A stretch of DNA of 35,743 nucleotides, from the NCBI GenBank assembly GCA_903828635.1, contig CAIKMY010000133.1:1-35743 (forward strand), in the 5' to 3' direction. Positions 22,263 through 30,796 of this stretch are shown in pieces. The stretch is from an uncultured Acidobacteriota bacterium. GTDB lineage: Bacteria; Acidobacteriota; Blastocatellia; RBC074. The notes under the pieces were generated by a model that saw nothing but the letters and a program-made list of their open reading frames with translations, was not told the DNA's origin and made no database searches. Numbering within the stretch: the first letter of the stretch is position 1; every line of letters starts with the position of its first letter. Made by a program: the position numbers and the translations under genes.

Positions 22263-23426
22263 TCACCCGATATCACCAATAGCAGGCTGACCAGTATCTA
22301 CTTTGGTTCTGGAGACCGGGCCGTGGCCCATCACCTCGGGGTAAGTACGCCTCTTCCAGGCGAAGCGACTCCAGTCACCGGTGACCTCGGTCGGTTTGTT
22401 GACGACTACCGGCTCGTCCCAGGTGCGCCGCAACTCGTCAGCGTGCGCGTTCAGCCAGTCTTCATTGTAGACGGTCTGCATATATCTGATTCCGTGGTCG
22501 GGGAGGATCATCAGAATGCGACTGTCGGGATGGGCGCGTGCAACCCACTCGGCAACGGCATATACCGCGCCGGATGTCGGGCCCAGGAGCAGCCCGTAGC
22601 TGCTGTGCAGGTGGTGAATTGCCTGGATCATCTTTGCTACGGGGACCCAGTGAACCTCGTCGCATTGGACGTGATCGACATTGGGGATGACGATATCGGA
22701 GCCCATGCCAAGCAGGAAATCATAGCACTCGTGACAGAGCGGATGCACGTTTGCACTCGTCGGTCCAAAAAGAACCGAGAGGTTATGATCGACGGCGATG
22801 ACCCGCAGATCGGGGCTGCTCTGGCGCAGGACACTGGTAAGGCCACAGAGCGAGCTGCCGCTGCCGACCGATCCAACGACGAAGTCGATCCTGCCGAGGC
22901 TCATTGCGGTGGCCGCGGAGATATCCTTGTAGGCCAGCGGATGGAGAGGGTTGTCGTACTGACGCGGCCAGAATGATCCGGGATTCTCTGCCATCACCTC
23001 GGCCAGCCGATTGAGCCGGGCCTGCTGGATGCCACCTGCCAGCCCGGCACCGCTCTCGATGCGGTCGATATTGGCCCCAAGGTGGCGCAGTCGCCACTCG
23101 ACACTCTTCTCCAGAGGTCCGGTCACCAACGAGAGGCGCAGGCCAAGAGTGGCGCAGACGATTGCCAGGCCGAGGGCAAAGGTGCCGGAACTGCTCTCGA
23201 CCACCAGTCCGCCCGGCTGCAATTCGCCGGTTTTGAGGGCCGTCTCCAGAATGAAACGCGCCGGTACGATCTTCATCAGATCAAACTGCAGGGCGAACAT
23301 GTTCGGCTGTAACCTGATGAGCGCCGGCCAACAGAGTCTGTCAAGCGGTGCGACTCCCCCCGGGTTGCGAAAGTCAATAGTCTCGGGTTGCTGCATGGTC
23401 GATGTAAAAATAGTACCGGTAGCCAT
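22263..23426 (-). CDS. SbnA-like PLP-dependent enzyme (cysteine synthase fold)
   Basis: Fold-type II PLP enzyme of 387 residues. The PLP lysine aligns to Lys52 in DLMKIVPARFILETAL. A substrate/phosphate loop is ESSSGTFALGLA (about 77-88), and the PLP-phosphate glycine loop is VGSVGSGSSLCG. Near the C-terminus, GLLLGPTSGAVYAV and LILPDHGIRYMQTVYNEDWL-like sequence resemble SbnA (2,3-diaminopropionate precursor synthase of staphyloferrin B) more than CysK. The residues around Lys52 differ from the usual PGGSxKDR pattern, so the substrate may differ too. An HDO gene lies 161 bp upstream in the same direction. The start at 23426 has AAGG upstream. Confidence 0.82.
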   Translation of the reverse strand: MATGTIFTSTMQQPETIDFRNPGGVAPLDRLCWPALIRLQPNMFALQFDLMKIVPARFILETALKTGELQPGGLVVESSSGTFALGLAIVCATLGLRLSLVTGPLEKSVEWRLRHLGANIDRIESGAGLAGGIQQARLNRLAEVMAENPGSFWPRQYDNPLHPLAYKDISAATAMSLGRIDFVVGSVGSGSSLCGLTSVLRQSSPDLRVIAVDHNLSVLFGPTSANVHPLCHECYDFLLGMGSDIVIPNVDHVQCDEVHWVPVAKMIQAIHHLHSSYGLLLGPTSGAVYAVAEWVARAHPDSRILMILPDHGIRYMQTVYNEDWLNAHADELRRTWDEPVVVNKPTEVTGDWSRFAWKRRTYPEVMGHGPVSRTKVDTGQPAIGDIG

Positions 23427-23587
23427 TATTCCAAGCCTTACAGTGCGACATCACCCCGGGGTGGCTCGTGCGGAGATCAAAGTTCAAAGGTTGATGCCGG
23501 AAAACCGCTATGGTTGAGCCTCACCAGTGGAGGTGACCAGCTTCCGCCCGGCTGGCTGATCCGCGACCTGAGGCGGGCCTCATCAGT

Positions 23588-24316
23588 TTACGGCTGTGCC
23601 GTCCTTGCCGCGATCCCGTTCTTCGCGTAAAGCTCCGCAAAGAGCCCTGCCCACCACATCTTCATCAGATGGATCGCCTGTCGGCCGCCACTCAGTACCT
23701 GCTGCGGCTTGAGCGTCGGGCGGTCTTCCGTACCTGCCACCACCTCCTGATCAGCATGTATCCCCCGCAGGAAGATTCCAAGTTCATCTTTGTGGCTCTG
23801 CTCAACCCCTTCGAGGTGCATCTGATGAAAACCAACCAGCGGCTTCCCCTCTTTTCCCGAGCACTTTCGCGCGATGACCTCTTCCGAGACATCCTTGAAG
23901 ACCTCATGCTCGAAGATCGCTGCTGCCTCGGTAGCGAATATCGTTCCCAGCACGAATGATGGCTCGCCCTTGCACAACTCACCAACCGCATCGAGGAAGG
24001 TTGTCGTCGGTCCAAACTCCTCACGCCCCCCGACATCCACGCCGATCTTTTTCAGCGCCAGCTTGTACATCGCCGCATGTCCGTTCTCTTCCTTGTAGTT
24101 GCGGATCAACTCGTTTTTAATCGCTTCGGTGTCAAATCCCCCGGCTCTCTCAGCAGCTTTCCATAAGAACTTTGTGTTAAGAAATGAGAACTGATAATGC
24201 TCCATCATCAGCCACTCAAGACTCCCGGTGCTGTATGGACTCAAATCCCTGAGAGGCTCACGGGCATTGCTCGTAAACTCCTCATTCCAACTGTTGATCA
24301 TTTGTTCAATATCCAT
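23588..24316 (-). CDS. Heme-oxygenase-like diiron oxidase (HDO) / iron-containing redox enzyme
   Basis: A 242-residue all-helical protein of the TenA/heme-oxygenase-like superfamily. It shows the acid/His spacing of the HDO group that includes UndA, BesC, SznF and CADD. Candidate metal ligands are Glu39 (MMEHYQFS), Glu77 and His80 (KEENGHAAMY), Glu130 or Glu136 (TEAAAIFEHEVF), and His167, Glu172 and His175 (HLEGVEQSH). HDOs use O2 for C-C cleavage, N-oxygenation or desaturation of amino or fatty acids. The pairing with a SbnA-like enzyme suggests an amino-acid-derived product. The promoter region has been invaded by an IS1380-like remnant. Confidence 0.78.
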   Translation of the reverse strand: MDIEQMINSWNEEFTSNAREPLRDLSPYSTGSLEWLMMEHYQFSFLNTKFLWKAAERAGGFDTEAIKNELIRNYKEENGHAAMYKLALKKIGVDVGGREEFGPTTTFLDAVGELCKGEPSFVLGTIFATEAAAIFEHEVFKDVSEEVIARKCSGKEGKPLVGFHQMHLEGVEQSHKDELGIFLRGIHADQEVVAGTEDRPTLKPQQVLSGGRQAIHLMKMWWAGLFAELYAKNGIAARTAQP

Positions 24317-24766: not shown

Positions 24767-27454
24767 TCAGTCCGGTTCCGGTGTCGGTTCCGGTTCAGTG
24801 GCTCGCAATTCCTGGCGATGATCCAGCAGGGGTTTCAGGGCAATGCTCAATCCGCCGAACAGTGACAGCGAATATAAGATCTCGGTCGCGGTAAAGGTAA
24901 AGCCGGCTAGCAGAATCCCGGAGAGAGCCACCAGACTGATTCCGGATGTATAGCGCAAGTTGAGCTTCAGATTAAGCTCAAACTCGCTGGCGAGATCAAA
25001 GAGGCGGGGCAATTGATCGAGATTGCCCTCCATCAGCACAATGTGGGCGGTGTCAGTGGCGACGGTCGTCGCCCCACGCAGCGAGATGGAGACCTCAGCC
25101 TGTCGCATGGCAATCGCGTCATTGATCCCGTCACCAATAAAGCAGACCTTACGTCCGCCGGCCTGAAGCTGCTCCACCAGTGTCGCCTTGGCTTCGGGCA
25201 GCGTGTTGGCAAAATATCCGGTCATGCGCAGGTCGTTTGCCAGCTTGCGTGTCGGCGCTTCCTGATCACCCGAGATGATGTAGAGATCAAGCCCGCGATC
25301 TTGCAGCTCGCGCACGACCGTCATTGCTTCGGGGCGCACCGTCGGTTGCAACTCCAGACAGCCAACCAGCGAATCGTCGATGGCAACCATCACCAGCGAG
25401 TGGCCTTCCACCTTCGTCCTCTCCGTCAGTCTGGCGACCTCTTCCGATATCTCCACGCCCTCCATGGTCATGAAGCGGCTGCTGCCAACCCTGATCAGCG
25501 GCTGTGCCATCGAGGAGTCCTTCAGCCTCACCTTGATTCCGTAACCAACTTCGTAATGCGCATGGTCGATTGCCGGCAACTGCAGCCCCAGCTCCCTCGC
25601 CGCCGCGAGGATCGCCCGTGCGATCGGATGGCTCTGCCGAGACTCTGCCGCCGCTGCCAGCATCAGGACACCTGCCTCATTAAGCCAGGACGCAGTCTCA
25701 AACCATGGCGATGATCGCGCACCCGAGATCAGGTGGATCCGCGCCAGGCTCGGCTGCTCGACCGTCAGCGTCCCCGTCTTGTCAAAGACTATCGTGTCAA
25801 CCCTGCTCAGCTTCTCCAGTGCCGGTGGCTCCTTGATCAGCATCCGTTGCCGTGCCGCCAGATTGAGGAAATTGAGCATTGCCAGAGAACTGGAGAGGTA
25901 TGAAGCCGTCGTCGAATTGGCGCCGATCAGACTGACTGCACCATCGAGCCCGATGAATGGCCAGCTTGCAAGACTCAGCGTCAGTGTTGGAATTGCCAGC
26001 TTGTCAGCCGCCGCCATCGCACTTACCAGTTGTGGCCTGGTGTTTTGCGCTGTCCGGTTGAGGATTGCCGCGATCTGCCCCGCTGTCGTCTCAACGCTCG
26101 TCTTTTCGACCATCACGTCGAGCCGTCCCGAAATGACCATCGTCGAGGCCAGCACCGGATCACCAGTCGTCTTCTCCACCGGCTGGGCTTCTCCCGTGAG
26201 CATGTGCTGGTCGAGTGTCGCTTCCCCCGCGATTACCATACCATCTACGGGCGCAATCTGCCCGGCATGCAGCACCAGCGTGTCGCCAATTTGCAGCTGT
26301 GTGAACGGGATCTCGACCTCGACCCCCTTGCTCCGAATCCAGACAGTCTCCGGCTGCAACTGGAAGAGGTTGATCAGGTTGTCCCGTGACTTATTCTCGC
26401 TCACTGCCTTTGCCTTGAGCATCAGACCGTAAAGCACTGCCCCCAGTGATCCAACCGTCGCGTACCCTCCCAGCCAGAGATAGAGGCTGTAAATGCACAT
26501 CAGGTGCAGTGCCCCGATCTTGCCAGTCTCCTTCCATTGACGGTAGGCGTAGGGGTATTTCGAACTTGATGCAAGGATGCCGGTGGCAATCGCCAGCGGC
26601 ATCAGTGGAGCCACAAAGTTGCTCGCCAGCGCCAGCGCCAGCGCACCCAGCCCCATCCCCAGCCGTCGATTGGCGGTTTTCTCCTCAGGGCGCAGGCCGA
26701 TCTCGCCGCCGTTGAGTATCGCCTGCAACTGTGAACGGTGTGAATTGCCGAGCAGCGGATCGATTCGCTCCCTGACAAATACCTGATAGCTCTCGTCAAA
26801 TGCCTCCAGCCGTGGCCTGATACTCTCCTCATACTTTTGAAGCCACGGCTGGAGAAATTGCTCAAGTGCTGCGAGCCAGGGCAGTGACCGCTGCTTCAGC
26901 AGCTCCGTCTTCGGCTGGACACGCTCGTCGAGCGCCTCCATTGCCGATCTCACGTCTTCCCGCACCTCATCGCGCAGCGGCCGCGTCTTCTTATCGATCA
27001 CTGCTGCCTGGCCACGCACCTCACTCGCCACCTCTTTTCCAATCTCGCGCAGCTCCGGGCCATACTTCTCATCGAGTGCCGCTGCCTGGCCACGCACCTC
27101 ACTCGCTATCTCTTTTCCAATCTCGCGCAGCTCCGGGCCATACTGCTCATCAAGCGCTGCCGCCTGCTCGCGCACCTCCAGTGTAATCCTTTGCGCCACC
27201 CCCCGGATCTCCGGAAGCACATTATTCTCAAATTCCTTCAACTGCTTCCGCAGCTCACTGCTCAACCCTCGGATACCCGCCCAGCCCTTGCCGTTACTGT
27301 TGCTATTACTGTTCCCGTTTCTCGCCTCACTTTTTCGGGACTCTCCCTCTGCCGACCCATCAGACTGTCTGCCGTCGCCATTCTGCCGCAATCGGTCAAT
27401 CAGCTCGTCTCGTGTGCTGTTGTTGCTGTTGATCACCGTCGACAATGGGAACAT
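24767..27454 (-). CDS. P1B-like P-type ATPase lacking the CPx motif, with N-terminal amphipathic repeats
   Basis: Integral-membrane P-type ATPase of 895 residues. The catalytic core is intact: LTGEAQPVE (A-domain), DKTGTLT with the phosphorylated Asp at about 558, SHPIARAI (the HP motif of P1B pumps) and GDGINDAIAM. The membrane helix that carries CPC in heavy-metal pumps reads ANSTTASYLSSSL here, so the CPx ligands are absent. There is no N-terminal HMA domain. Instead about 270 residues precede the first helix, including three tandem 26-residue units like EVRGQAAALDEKYGPELREI, predicted amphipathic. The substrate is unknown. The start is uncertain; a TTG at 27526 would add 24 residues. Confidence 0.85.
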   Translation of the reverse strand: MFPLSTVINSNNSTRDELIDRLRQNGDGRQSDGSAEGESRKSEARNGNSNSNSNGKGWAGIRGLSSELRKQLKEFENNVLPEIRGVAQRITLEVREQAAALDEQYGPELREIGKEIASEVRGQAAALDEKYGPELREIGKEVASEVRGQAAVIDKKTRPLRDEVREDVRSAMEALDERVQPKTELLKQRSLPWLAALEQFLQPWLQKYEESIRPRLEAFDESYQVFVRERIDPLLGNSHRSQLQAILNGGEIGLRPEEKTANRRLGMGLGALALALASNFVAPLMPLAIATGILASSSKYPYAYRQWKETGKIGALHLMCIYSLYLWLGGYATVGSLGAVLYGLMLKAKAVSENKSRDNLINLFQLQPETVWIRSKGVEVEIPFTQLQIGDTLVLHAGQIAPVDGMVIAGEATLDQHMLTGEAQPVEKTTGDPVLASTMVISGRLDVMVEKTSVETTAGQIAAILNRTAQNTRPQLVSAMAAADKLAIPTLTLSLASWPFIGLDGAVSLIGANSTTASYLSSSLAMLNFLNLAARQRMLIKEPPALEKLSRVDTIVFDKTGTLTVEQPSLARIHLISGARSSPWFETASWLNEAGVLMLAAAAESRQSHPIARAILAAARELGLQLPAIDHAHYEVGYGIKVRLKDSSMAQPLIRVGSSRFMTMEGVEISEEVARLTERTKVEGHSLVMVAIDDSLVGCLELQPTVRPEAMTVVRELQDRGLDLYIISGDQEAPTRKLANDLRMTGYFANTLPEAKATLVEQLQAGGRKVCFIGDGINDAIAMRQAEVSISLRGATTVATDTAHIVLMEGNLDQLPRLFDLASEFELNLKLNLRYTSGISLVALSGILLAGFTFTATEILYSLSLFGGLSIALKPLLDHRQELRATEPEPTPEPD

Positions 27455-27552
27455 CTCTCTCAATCGGAGCACACAGGATTGGAACACACCCCGCTGCAAT
27501 CGCCACGAATCAGGGTTGTGCTCCAATGTGTGACGATGTCGGCTGTTTCTGT

Positions 27553-28146
27553 TTAGTTGAAATCGCTCTCCTGCAGGTTAAAAGCCTCCCGCAGTGCCTC
27601 AAGTCGTGCACTGAATGGTTCGAGGTCAGTCTTGCTGGCGAGGAAGATATCCAGCCGGTGGCTCACCATTGCCAGCTCGGGAAAACCCTCTGTTCGCCCA
27701 AGTTCCACTCGCAGCCGTACACCTTCCGTCAACTCAATCAATCTCTGCGTGCGCGACATGTCGCTTCTCAGTTGCTCGACTGCGCCTTCGTGTACCGCCA
27801 GTACCATCGGACTGTTCCAGTGACGTCCTTCGAGCGATGCCAGGATCTCACGCCGCTTGGCCTGTATTTTTACCAGATCATTTGTGTATGACTCGAATCG
27901 CTTCCTGAAATCATCCAGTGGCAGCTTGGCCAGTTCGTCGAGAACCACCCTCAGTTCACGCGCCAGCTTGTGCTCACTCAGCGCCACATTGCGCGCCTCC
28001 GGTGTGAGCGATTTCAGTTGTTTCCCCAGTGCTTTTGCTTCCTCGCGCTGGCTCCCGTAGGGCATGGGCACAAGGTGCACACACCCGCCGGCCAGCACTC
28101 CGATCAACAGCAGACTAAATAAACTCCATCGGGTCGTCAGTGACAC
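27553..28146 (-). CDS. Coiled-coil lipoprotein, function unknown
   Basis: A 197-residue protein with a lipoprotein signal (TTRWSLFSLLLIGVLAGGC; LAGGC lipobox, Cys22 as the lipidated residue). Long charged helices follow (EAKALGKQLKSLTPEARNVAL, ending in LEALREAFNLQESDF). The true start is the GTG at 28146, 1 bp after the SPFH stop, with GGAG about 8 bp upstream. The longer frame reaching 28251 would overlap the SPFH gene and bury the signal peptide. No family was recognised. Tight coupling to the SPFH gene suggests the two products act together at the membrane. Confidence 0.75.
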   Translation of the reverse strand: MSLTTRWSLFSLLLIGVLAGGCVHLVPMPYGSQREEAKALGKQLKSLTPEARNVALSEHKLARELRVVLDELAKLPLDDFRKRFESYTNDLVKIQAKRREILASLEGRHWNSPMVLAVHEGAVEQLRSDMSRTQRLIELTEGVRLRVELGRTEGFPELAMVSHRLDIFLASKTDLEPFSARLEALREAFNLQESDFN

Positions 28147-28147
28147 T

Positions 28148-29101
28148 TCATTTCTCCGGTGTCGTTCCAAAGAGGAGTGGCAATTCTCCCTTGCTTCCCA
28201 CCACGACAATCTTGGCGTTTGGCGATTTTGCCAAATCCTGTGTTGCCTCAATCCCCTTCCAGATCAGCACACTTTTGGGGATATTGGGAACCAGTCGCGC
28301 GTACTCTCTCAGCCCCTGGGCCTCAACCTGCTTCTGCAGCGACTGCTGCCTCTCCTCTTCCACTTTGAATACCGCCGCCATCGATCTCTGCTCAGCCTCA
28401 ACCTTTTGCTGGATCGCCTGCTGTACCATCTCAGGTAGTTTGATGTTGAAGAGGGCGACATCCTCGATCGCAAGAAATTCACCACCAATCAGCTGCTTGG
28501 TACTCTCAAGGATTCGACTCACCGAGACCCCTGTCTCTGACCCGTAGACCTCCTCAGCAAGGAATTGACCAATCACCCGCTGCACTGACCCCTTCAATTG
28601 CGGGGTCACGAAAGTGTTGACATAATCGGGCCCGAACCGCCGATGCAACTGTGGCACCATGTCCGGGATCGGGTGAAACCGGATCTGCGCGTCAAGATTG
28701 ACCTCAAGGCCATTGCGCGAGAGCACCTCCAATGACTGGATCATCGTCTGACTTCTGACCGAGTAGAGGTAGTACTTGTCCCATGGTGCGACGATGTGCA
28801 GACCTTCGCGGGAGATCCGGTTATGCTGCGTTCCGCCAAAGAGGCTGTAGTAGACAACAAGCACCTGACCCGTATCGACCCGAACAAATATTCGCTCACG
28901 CAGTACATAGAGCAGCGATACGACAAGAATCAGGTATATACCCCATTTGACAAATTTGTAGAGTCGCCGCAGCTTCGGAAACCTCGTCTTTGTTGCTCCC
29001 TTACCGACACTGGCGTCATTGCTGGCGGGATCAATAGTTCCTGACCCGGTACCCGGACTACTCGCCCCGGCTTTTGCATCGCTCGTTAAATCGTTATTCA
29101 A
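28148..29101 (-). CDS. SPFH/prohibitin (Band 7) family membrane protein
   Basis: A 317-residue protein with a Ser/Gly-rich N-tail and one transmembrane helix (about 52-70, GIYLILVVSLLYVLRERI). An SPFH domain follows (VRVDTGQVLVVYYSLFGG, LHIVAPWDKYYLYSVRSQ, LEVNLDAQIRFHP). A charged coiled coil comes next (IQQKVEAEQRSMAAVFKVEEE) and then a short C-terminal domain. SPFH proteins form ring-like assemblies that organise membrane microdomains or control membrane proteases. It lies between the DUF697 gene and the lipoprotein gene in one direction. No HflK/HflC partner or FtsH is adjacent, so this is not the usual HflKC pair. Confidence 0.88.
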   Translation of the reverse strand: MNNDLTSDAKAGASSPGTGSGTIDPASNDASVGKGATKTRFPKLRRLYKFVKWGIYLILVVSLLYVLRERIFVRVDTGQVLVVYYSLFGGTQHNRISREGLHIVAPWDKYYLYSVRSQTMIQSLEVLSRNGLEVNLDAQIRFHPIPDMVPQLHRRFGPDYVNTFVTPQLKGSVQRVIGQFLAEEVYGSETGVSVSRILESTKQLIGGEFLAIEDVALFNIKLPEMVQQAIQQKVEAEQRSMAAVFKVEEERQQSLQKQVEAQGLREYARLVPNIPKSVLIWKGIEATQDLAKSPNAKIVVVGSKGELPLLFGTTPEK

Positions 29102-29163
29102 TCATCCCTCCGGAGGAGTTGCCTGGCCAGTTCTGCGGTAGCACGCAGGCAGACCTGTAAACT

Positions 29164-29205
29164 TTCAGGCACTCGAAAGGCAGTAAGCCATTCCGAGTGC
29201 CTGAA
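29164..29205 (-). terminator. Perfect 12-bp hairpin between DUF697 and SPFH genes
   Basis: TTCAGGCACTCG (29164-29175) pairs perfectly with CGAGTGCCTGAA (29194-29205), with further partial pairing (GGC/GCC) inside the loop. It lacks a clear T-run on the minus strand. It could attenuate or process the transcript between the two genes rather than end it. Confidence 0.5.
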
Positions 29206-29267
29206 TATTGTCGTCATTGTAACTGATGATATGCGGGGCCGCGAAGCCCGGGCTCAGGCCCCCGTGT

Positions 29268-30191
29268 TCAGGCTGTGGCCGCGGCCGTTTCTGCAGAAGT
29301 CTGGGCTGACTCGTGGATTGTGCCACCCGCCTTCTTAAATTCGTTGACGAAGTGCTCCGTGAAGGCCTTCGGATCGAAGGTCAGCAGGGTTCCGCCACTC
29401 TCAAAGTGCATGATAAAAACACTGCCGACCGCTTTCGTCAGCGCGTAGGCGAGTACCGGCGTCGCAATGAATATTGCCAGCGCTCCAAAGAGCAGACCAG
29501 CCCCCTGTCCCGCCAGCACAGGAATCACCGACGTCAACAGCGAGATCAGCACACCACGTACCTGCTCTTTGGTCACGTTGTGTCCGAATGCGCGCGAAAT
29601 CCGCCAGACCATCGATACCTGAGCCGAGAGCACTCCAACGAGGCTGCCCACCGGACCCGGCACCAGGCCGAGACCTGCGGCGACCTTCGAGTGCAGGCTG
29701 ACAATGCGTATCGATTCCGCCAGCGGATCAGCCGGGGCCGTCTCCGCCTCGGTCGTCGTCTCGGTCGCATTGTCACTTGCCGCCGCACTTTTGGCCCTGC
29801 CCGGCAGCAGTGACCTTACCGACCCGATTATATTCTTCGTGCGCTTCAGCACACCGGTTGCTTTCTTTTCCAGCTCATCGGCTCGTGCCAGCGCCTGCTG
29901 CGCCTGCTCCATCTCGCCATCGTTGATCAGCTCAAGCGCCTTTTCGCGCTCCGCCCGCGCTTCCGCCAGCCATTGCTCTTTTTGATTCTCTTTCCGAATC
30001 CCCTCGGCCTCTTTCAGGACGCGTCGTGCCTCCGCATGGCGCCCCTCACGCAGCAGTTGTGCCGTCTTCTCCTGAATAGACTTCAGGCGTGCCTGCCGCT
30101 CGGCAGCGGAATCGACAGATCCTGCAGTTTCCTGCTCCGCCGTTGCTGCTGCGTTGTTGGTGTCAGTATTGAACCCGTTCGAATCGCTCAT
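29268..30191 (-). CDS. DUF697-domain membrane protein with N-terminal coiled coil
   Basis: A 307-residue protein. A low-complexity start is followed by a charged helical region (about 28-118, [20 protein letters not shown], then [18 protein letters not shown]). A Thr/Ala linker comes next, then a hydrophobic DUF697 domain (about 165-275) with [20 protein letters not shown] and [13 protein letters not shown], the hallmark end of that family. DUF697 is often attached to, or beside, GTPases; no GTPase domain is present here. The ATG at 30191 is chosen because AAAGGAG lies 6 bp upstream. The frame runs on to 30395 through a 15-bp repeat. Confidence 0.82.
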
Positions 30192-30796
30192 GCTATCTCC
30201 TTTATGCTGCAGCGGATATTGCTGTGCCTGCAGCTCCTCCTTGTCTGTCCGGCTTCCATCCTGGCCATGTCCATCCTGGCCATGTCCATCCTGGCCATGT
30301 CCATCTTGGCCATGGTCGTTGCTCCTGTTATTGGTCGCGGCCGGGCCTGCCGTTGCCTGCCTTTCGCCAACCCCCGTTTTTTTTGACCTGGCCACGCTTC
30401 GAGGCTCTCCAATTACTCGATTGTACTTCGTAAGACTAATCTGATCCTGAAGCTGATTCGGCGTTACTCAGCACACAATCAGACTTCGCAGTCTTCGCAG
30501 TCTTCTCATCAGTCTTCAAGGATGAAGATGAGATAGGTCGCCGCTGCCATTAGTGTCTGCAGTCGATTAAACATCAACTTTTGATGTCGTGCACTATACA
30601 GCAGTTATTACCAAAGTCACAGTATTTATACCATTATTGTCTCATCGATCTCTTTCAATTTTTGATTAATTTTACGATCATCACCATCAAATGTTCTGAA
30701 TTTTGCATTGATCGACTCGTTAATGTTAGCGGGCCATGCACGCAATGTATATATATCAATGCTTTAGTAGATTTAGTGGGAATGAGCGGTAAAGCC
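30192..30796. other. Leader and AT-rich intergenic region upstream of the DUF697 gene
   Basis: The gap holds the 15-bp repeat and small CAGTCTTC direct repeats (30480-30515). An AT-rich stretch at about 30570-30790 contrasts with the GC-rich flanks. It includes a short hairpin (ACATCA/TGATGT) and runs such as TATATATA. It is a likely promoter region for the minus-strand cluster. A 93-codon frame on the plus strand at 30581 has no recognisable content. Confidence 0.45.
30256..30315 (-). repeat. 15-bp tandem repeat, 4 units, in the DUF697 gene leader
   Basis: CCATCCTGGCCATGT occurs at 30256-30270, 30271-30285 and 30286-30300. A variant (CCATCTTGGCCATGG) follows at 30301-30315. On the minus strand, in the DUF697 frame, it would read as DGHGQ repeats if translated. 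The favoured start lies downstream, so it is probably untranslated leader. Confidence 0.9.

Follow-up and report, generated by a model that had tools for sequence, protein, structure and literature searches.

Introduction

In Mycobacterium tuberculosis a P1B-type ATPase is encoded beside a small membrane scaffold protein, and the scaffold PacL1 gathers the ATPase CtpC into membrane foci (PMC9374683). Annotated heavy-metal P-type ATPases are also found inside polyketide synthase (PKS) and nonribosomal peptide synthetase (NRPS) gene clusters: orf16 and orf23 in that for miuraenamide (PMC10051162), and likewise in that for lusichelin (PMC12210259). The SPFH5 protein YqfA of Bacillus subtilis is reported to confer toxic-peptide resistance (cited in PMC2636767). 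Here we describe a four-gene membrane cluster of an uncultured Acidobacteriota bacterium, located on contig CAIKMY010000133.1 (C133). The window, meaning the whole stretch of DNA that was analysed, is this entire contig (35.7 kb) of a 4.3-Mb draft genome. The cluster encodes a DUF697-like membrane protein, a prohibitin-type SPFH protein, a putative lipoprotein and a P-type ATPase that lacks the CPx motif of heavy-metal pumps. The reading that we favour, which we regard as evenly poised between right and wrong, is that the four genes form a horizontally assembled membrane accessory module for metabolite export or self-protection, organised by a prohibitin-like cage. Such a module would be of the inner-membrane and periplasmic kind that accompanies gene clusters for NRPS, PKS and peptide export.

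Locus organization

The initial annotation had placed four same-strand membrane genes in this part of the window, and they are present at about those positions on the minus strand:

29268..30191, minus strand: DUF697-like membrane protein (P0001, 307 aa); ATG start with AAGGAG ahead, N-terminal coiled coil, hydrophobic hairpins
28148..29101, minus strand: prohibitin-type SPFH/Band_7 protein (P0002, 317 aa); TTG start with GGAGG 5 nt ahead
27553..28146, minus strand: putative lipoprotein (P0003, 197 aa); GTG start with GGAG ahead, lipobox ..LAGGC
24767..27454, minus strand: P1B-like P-type ATPase without CPx (P0004, 895 aa); ATG start
27003..27178, minus strand: 78-bp tandem repeat, 2.3 copies, in the N-terminal helical extension of the ATPase (TRF)

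The order of transcription is DUF697-like protein, SPFH protein, lipoprotein and ATPase; all four lie on the same strand with gaps of 166, 1 and 98 bp. Good Shine-Dalgarno sequences precede three of the four starts (DUF697-like, SPFH and lipoprotein genes). The 1-bp spacing reported earlier is confirmed: the GTG of the lipoprotein gene lies only one base past the SPFH stop, which suggests translational coupling of the two genes. Directly upstream of the DUF697 gene start, at 30255-30314, a 15-bp repeat (TCCATCCTGGCCATG) occurs in four copies.

The ATPase and its clade

The ATPase matches Pfam E1-E2_ATPase (1e-28) and Hydrolase (3e-27) strongly and scores 358.1 bits against the P1B model TIGR01525, above the cut-off of 346.25. 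Its nearest solved folds in a Foldseek search are P1B ATPases, and the catalytic motifs DKTGT, TGE, SHP and GDGIND are all intact. On sequence, fold and motifs it is judged to be P1B-derived, though CPx is absent: in an ungapped alignment from M4 to DKTGT, STT stands where CopA-like pumps carry CPC (M4 segment STTASYLSSS), so that the description of the pump as CPx-less was correct. HMA domains are common in P1B heavy-metal ATPases, if not universal. Pfam gave no match to an HMA or other N-terminal metal-binding domain in the window ATPase, which has a helical, apolipoprotein-like extension instead. The amphipathic repeats already noted in this protein, for which membrane bridging was a tentative proposal, were recovered as an apolipoprotein-like match at residues 67-227, derived in part from the 78-bp tandem repeat. 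The closest homologue (L025; 65% identity over the shared part) shows no such repeats, which therefore look lineage-specific; the extension is missing from the sister copy of the window ATPase. An AlphaFold 2 (AF2) model of the ATPase, with a mean predicted local distance difference test score (pLDDT) of 68, was too weak for a substrate site to be read from it. The ordinary P1B ATPases found in family relatives share only about 30% identity with the window ATPase, and the genome holds one paralogue (46%), on contig C103, beside a PKS module end (KR-ACP) and a type II thioesterase-like gene.

To collect members of the clade, degenerate patterns were run against 84,980 species genomes and the surroundings of the matches were then searched; the pattern step makes this collection non-exhaustive. 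The 22 sequences include members from one Chloroflexota order, another Chloroflexota genome (G597), Desulfonema magnum, a Roseivirga metagenome-assembled genome and two plasmids; among Desulfobacterota the clade was found in 1 of 395 genomes. In a tree with 62 control P-type ATPases the CPx-less sequences are monophyletic: 21 of them group with support of 1.0, and the full set of 22 with 0.93. The window ATPase is sister to a Chloroflexota copy (G326_C90; support 1.0), and since the C103 copy is placed elsewhere in the clade, the two copies point to two separate acquisitions.

CPx is missing from every clade member, while the controls mostly have CPC. Within a ten-residue M4 segment, 2 of the 22 clade sequences have a Cys, compared with 60 of the 62 ordinary P1B controls; for a basic residue the counts are 19 of 22 and 5 of 62. 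The commonest clade pattern at the CPC region is G-x-N-x-R. The catalytic motifs are retained throughout, save for the TGE of one outlier. Because M4 lacks CPx and is poor in Cys, the usual soft-metal site is absent; together with the retained energy-coupling motifs, this makes a metal substrate less likely.

A metal-efflux platform like PacL/CtpC, in which the ATPase would pump a metal or inorganic ion by a non-CPx site with the SPFH protein, DUF697-like protein and lipoprotein as its scaffold, is unlikely in our judgement. The P1B ancestry of the ATPase, in sequence and fold, speaks for it, as do the PacL1-dependent foci, a DtxR/FeoA-type (iron-dependent) repressor gene upstream of the closest homologue, and, no further than about 12 kb from a distant Deinococcus relative, metal-dependent regulators and a metal ABC transporter. 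It has to be set against the M4 composition described above, where most clade members have a basic residue, against the lack of HMA and DUF1490 domains in all four proteins and against a clade that sits mostly in natural-product loci. Moreover, the mycobacterial foci are flotillin-independent and their CtpC retains CPC (PMC9374683). The repressor in L025 (454-1202) is spread over two frames directly upstream of the ATPase, a frameshift or an assembly error.

Natural-product neighbours of the clade

Neighbours of clade members, as assigned by Pfam and NCBIfam, include the following:

G326:C287: PKS AT-DH-ER-KR-ACP-TE
G000:C103 (same genome as the window): PKS KR-ACP
G327:C50: NRPS C-PCP, adjoining three clade ATPases in a row
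G759: A-ACP-sulfotransferase-TE (NRPS)
G760:C187: A-PCP (NRPS)
Roseivirga: AMP ligase-ACP-aminotransferase
Desulfonema: AMP ligase (acyl-AMP ligase/ACP) and cyclic-peptide exporters
G327:C69: tryptophan halogenase and sulfotransferase
G326:C784, G327:C91 and G761: C39-peptidase ABC transporters

By one common motif scan, natural-product genes occur in 8 of 18 clade loci and in none of 38 control P1B loci, a difference (p=3e-5) that serves as a guide only and tells less for the accessory module than it seems to, the control loci coming from other taxa than the clade hosts and often from shorter contigs. The natural-product context of the cluster families is likewise to be read with the origin of the sample in mind, as the loci searched had been found via these same genes. 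At G327:C50 (L026 / L089) the three CPx-less ATPases alternate with family 5 solute-binding proteins (SBP_bac_5) beside the NRPS genes.

SPFH protein and its linkages

To our knowledge, the functions of bacterial SPFH proteins are mostly unknown. The window protein matches Band_7 (PF01145) strongly, at 1.9e-26, and the initial annotation was right to call it prohibitin-like, since its best solved match is Prohibitin-2 (PHB2; 4.5e-19). The suggestion that SPFH scaffold and pump belong together gains from the finding that an SPFH gene lies within a few genes of clade ATPases in four Chloroflexota loci also (G326:C784, G327:C91, G597:C44 and G761:C84); SPFH profile matches occur in 5 of 18 clade loci and 0 of 38 control P1B loci (p=0.002). 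The Chloroflexota SPFH proteins that adjoin the ATPases were rejected as orthologues of the window protein (29 bits against their profile, where a different acidobacterial SPFH protein gave 155).

In three of the four Chloroflexota loci the SPFH gene directly follows a truncated or degenerate ATPase gene: L092 (10101-11000) and L093 (11961-12824) encode the E1-E2 domain only, and L115 (17434-19233) encodes 599 aa with no DKTGT. An ATPase gene with the N-terminal part only (L101, 16038-16538) also lies near an SPFH gene. All four are possible split or regulatory ATPase halves.

The window SPFH protein is nearest to those of two acidobacterial NRPS loci (one in G031, another in G072), of a cyclic-peptide-exporter locus in G240 and of Desulfonema, a placement that is weakly supported in the SPFH tree. 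A DUF697 relative lies close to the SPFH gene in these three acidobacterial genomes and in Desulfonema. In both G031 and G072 the DUF697 gene comes first, then one for a cyclic-peptide export ABC transporter (TIGR01194, above cut-off), then SPFH, then a periplasmic solute-binding protein and NRPS. The succession of SPFH and solute-binding protein recurs in L137, L138, L143, L144, L092, L093 and L116, with a divergent arrangement in L101; in the window, the lipoprotein occupies the place after SPFH that the solute-binding protein holds elsewhere. Pentapeptide-repeat proteins fused to periplasmic-binding-protein domains are encoded near the SPFH genes of L092, L093, L101 and L116, directly after them in the first two.

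DUF697-like protein and lipoprotein

The family assignments made initially hold for the SPFH protein, the P-type ATPase and the lipoprotein. The DUF697 assignment stands less firmly, the window protein matching Pfam DUF697 at 1.4e-4 and 22.1 bits, under the gathering cut-off of 27.7, though its Desulfonema relative (L138) scores 47.1 and so exceeds it. Compared with solved structures, the protein gave only repeat or coiled-coil matches. DUF697 relatives occur in 7 of 296 other sampled Acidobacteriota. Five of seven inspected acidobacterial loci stand beside NRPS or PKS genes (L140, L142, L143, L144 and L145), and three of the seven carry SPFH (L141, L143 and L144). A weak DUF697 match at about 743643-743999 of G161:C11 (L135) falls within an open reading frame that the search tool gives as 24,207 codons long.

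The AF2 model of the lipoprotein is an all-helical bundle (pLDDT 74.5) with no PDB match at E<=0.001. No solid relative was found in 297 Acidobacteriota, the hits being its own genome and one match at E=7e-4, and by these searches the lipoprotein is an orphan.

Conservation of the gene set

The initial annotation had treated the four families as one set and had looked to their co-occurrence in other genomes; when this was searched for, no other genome was found to hold all four, and the claim in that form falls. Vertical conservation was also rejected: the ATPase occurs in 1 of 297 Acidobacteriota genomes, with no close relative at E<=1e-100 in the 296 others sampled, the lipoprotein in 1 of 297 (bar the E=7e-4 match) and SPFH relatives in 3 of 58 genomes, that of the window included. 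Parts of the cluster do recur in pairs, DUF697 with SPFH and ATPase with SPFH, each in other phyla.

These results bear on the view that the genes are chance neighbours, up to four independent genes from separate transfers with no shared function. The complete set was seen once, the lipoprotein is an orphan, a promoter and terminator scan of the locus gave no signal above chance, and GC content varies between the genes (SPFH 0.536, DUF697 0.604), all as chance would have it; in itself the GC content of the cluster genes gave no clear signal of transfer. The 1-bp gap between the SPFH and lipoprotein genes and the recurrence of both pairs in other phyla are hard to square with chance, and we hold this explanation to be quite unlikely.

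Genomic neighbourhood

Outside the cluster the window genes are mostly housekeeping. The neighbours are murC-ftsQ-ftsA-ftsZ, pdxA, a citrate synthase, a solute symporter, mlaEFD and a rhodanese, with a PMT_2 protein and a PKD-domain outer-membrane-type protein. Comparison of the contig's FtsZ with the main FtsZ copy of nine other family members gave 68-77% identity; the contig is therefore taken to be binned correctly, and its misassembly or misbinning is unlikely. Two further genes lie downstream of the four and are possibly linked to them:

23588..24316, minus strand: helical protein with weak DUF3865 likeness (7.9e-4, under cut-off)
22263..23426, minus strand: pyridoxal phosphate (PLP) enzyme of SbnA/cysteine-synthase type (PALP 2.7e-30)

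The best NCBIfam model for the PLP enzyme is SbnA (188 bits, under the cut-off of 350). Among known structures no solved relative of the DUF3865-like protein was found, only repeat or coiled-coil matches; it is probably of heme-oxygenase-like type. The two genes adjoin each other on the same strand (22263-24316), possibly as a small amino-acid-derived pathway.

A general envelope-stress or membrane quality-control module, a prohibitin-like cage with helper proteins and no metabolite link, would accord with this housekeeping neighbourhood, MlaEFD included, and with what prohibitin and HflK/C type SPFH proteins are known to do. Its distribution is rare and patchy, unlike that of a housekeeping stress module. 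The initial annotation had suggested a pump-containing microdomain or a stress-responsive membrane-remodelling complex. A general stress module is less likely than a metabolite export or immunity module, because relatives of three of the four genes have a natural-product context, and we consider it very unlikely.

Proposed function

In the accessory module as we picture it, the SPFH protein would oligomerise in the membrane into a prohibitin-like ring, cage or patch whose body lies in the periplasm. The translationally coupled lipoprotein would dock on the periplasmic side of this assembly, where related loci have a solute-binding protein, and the DUF697-like protein would anchor coiled coils at the membrane, tying the cytoplasmic face to the SPFH assembly. 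Through an ordinary phosphoenzyme cycle the CPx-less ATPase would carry a substrate other than a soft metal ion across the inner membrane or within it; alternatively, it may keep the membrane composition safe. In this way a membrane-active specialised metabolite would be exported, or the cell made immune to it. We infer co-transcription, a physical complex, and the substrate and direction of the pump.

Several observations weigh against this reading. The complete set was found only in the window's genome, and none of the genes of the 35.7-kb contig is an NRPS, PKS or RiPP (ribosomally synthesized and post-translationally modified peptide) gene. Because the contig is without a megasynthase, we only infer that the window copy still serves a metabolite; the producer genes may lie elsewhere in the genome, with the C103 PKS contig as a candidate, may have been lost, or may be the SbnA-like and DUF3865-like pair. 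The window copy and its sister (SMYTSYLSGS) have neither G-x-N-x-R nor the basic M4 residue usual in the clade, and the repressor gene upstream of the closest homologue hints at metal. Since the Chloroflexota SPFH proteins are of another subfamily than the window's, the pairing with the ATPase there arose in parallel and was not inherited, and is weak evidence of a functional link. Lastly, deletion of a region with one annotated P-type ATPase of the miuraenamide cluster left the yield unchanged, and deletion of a region with another raised it tenfold (PMC10051162). As these deletions, neighbours included, gave no drop in yield, the ATPases are dispensable for production there, a result that fits immunity or regulation better than biosynthesis.

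More broadly, and as a doubtful generalisation, CPx-less P-type ATPases may have arisen from metal pumps, swapped the Cys metal site for a basic or polar one, and joined natural-product clusters on many occasions, there to export or neutralise products of an organic, peptide-like or lipid-like nature, in some cases within SPFH cages. Neither the clade nor SPFH proteins in NRPS clusters are described in the literature searched, which lacked most subscription journals. If the proposal is true, proteins annotated as heavy-metal pumps are misnamed, and P-type ATPases join the self-resistance and export proteins of specialised metabolism, as a pump class alongside ABC, MFS and RND exporters that would be useful to genome-mining tools. 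Bacterial prohibitin-type SPFH proteins would also gain a testable partner set: a pump or ABC exporter, a solute-binding protein or lipoprotein, and a DUF697 protein.

Comparison with known systems

With heavy-metal P1B ATPases of the CopA, ZntA and CadA types the window ATPase shares topology, the DKTGT/TGE/HP/GDGIND motifs, a TIGR01525 score above cut-off and the nearest solved folds; it differs in lacking the CPx motif and HMA domain and in belonging to a clade tied to natural-product loci. The ATPases of the miuraenamide and lusichelin clusters are likened to it by annotation alone. A miuraenamide P-type ATPase stands beside a mechanosensitive-channel gene, as in L092 (PMC10051162), whereas SPFH is not reported in either cluster and the authors do not treat the ATPases as a system (PMC10051162, PMC12210259). 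The prohibitin/SPFH4 family and the SPFH5 protein YqfA resemble the window SPFH protein in the SPFH domain, the N-terminal membrane anchor and the absence of an NfeD partner; the window gene differs in its company, a P-type ATPase and a lipoprotein gene, with neither FtsH nor NfeD next to it. Cyclic-peptide export ABC transporters (TIGR01194; SyrD/PvdE type) are encoded between DUF697 and SPFH genes in the NRPS loci L143 and L144, but have the ABC fold, and the window has a P-type ATPase in place of an ABC exporter.

The PacL/CtpC platform comes closest. CtpC has CPC and pumps zinc, and its scaffold is a DUF1490 protein that works independently of flotillin (PMC9374683), whereas the window has no CPx and, in the scaffold's stead, a prohibitin-type SPFH protein, a DUF697-like protein and a lipoprotein. 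None of the four window proteins matches a DUF1490/DUF6110 scaffold. With these two defining features, CPC and DUF1490, tested and found wanting, PacL/CtpC is the nearest described idea, and the window cluster is a variant, not a member, of such platforms.

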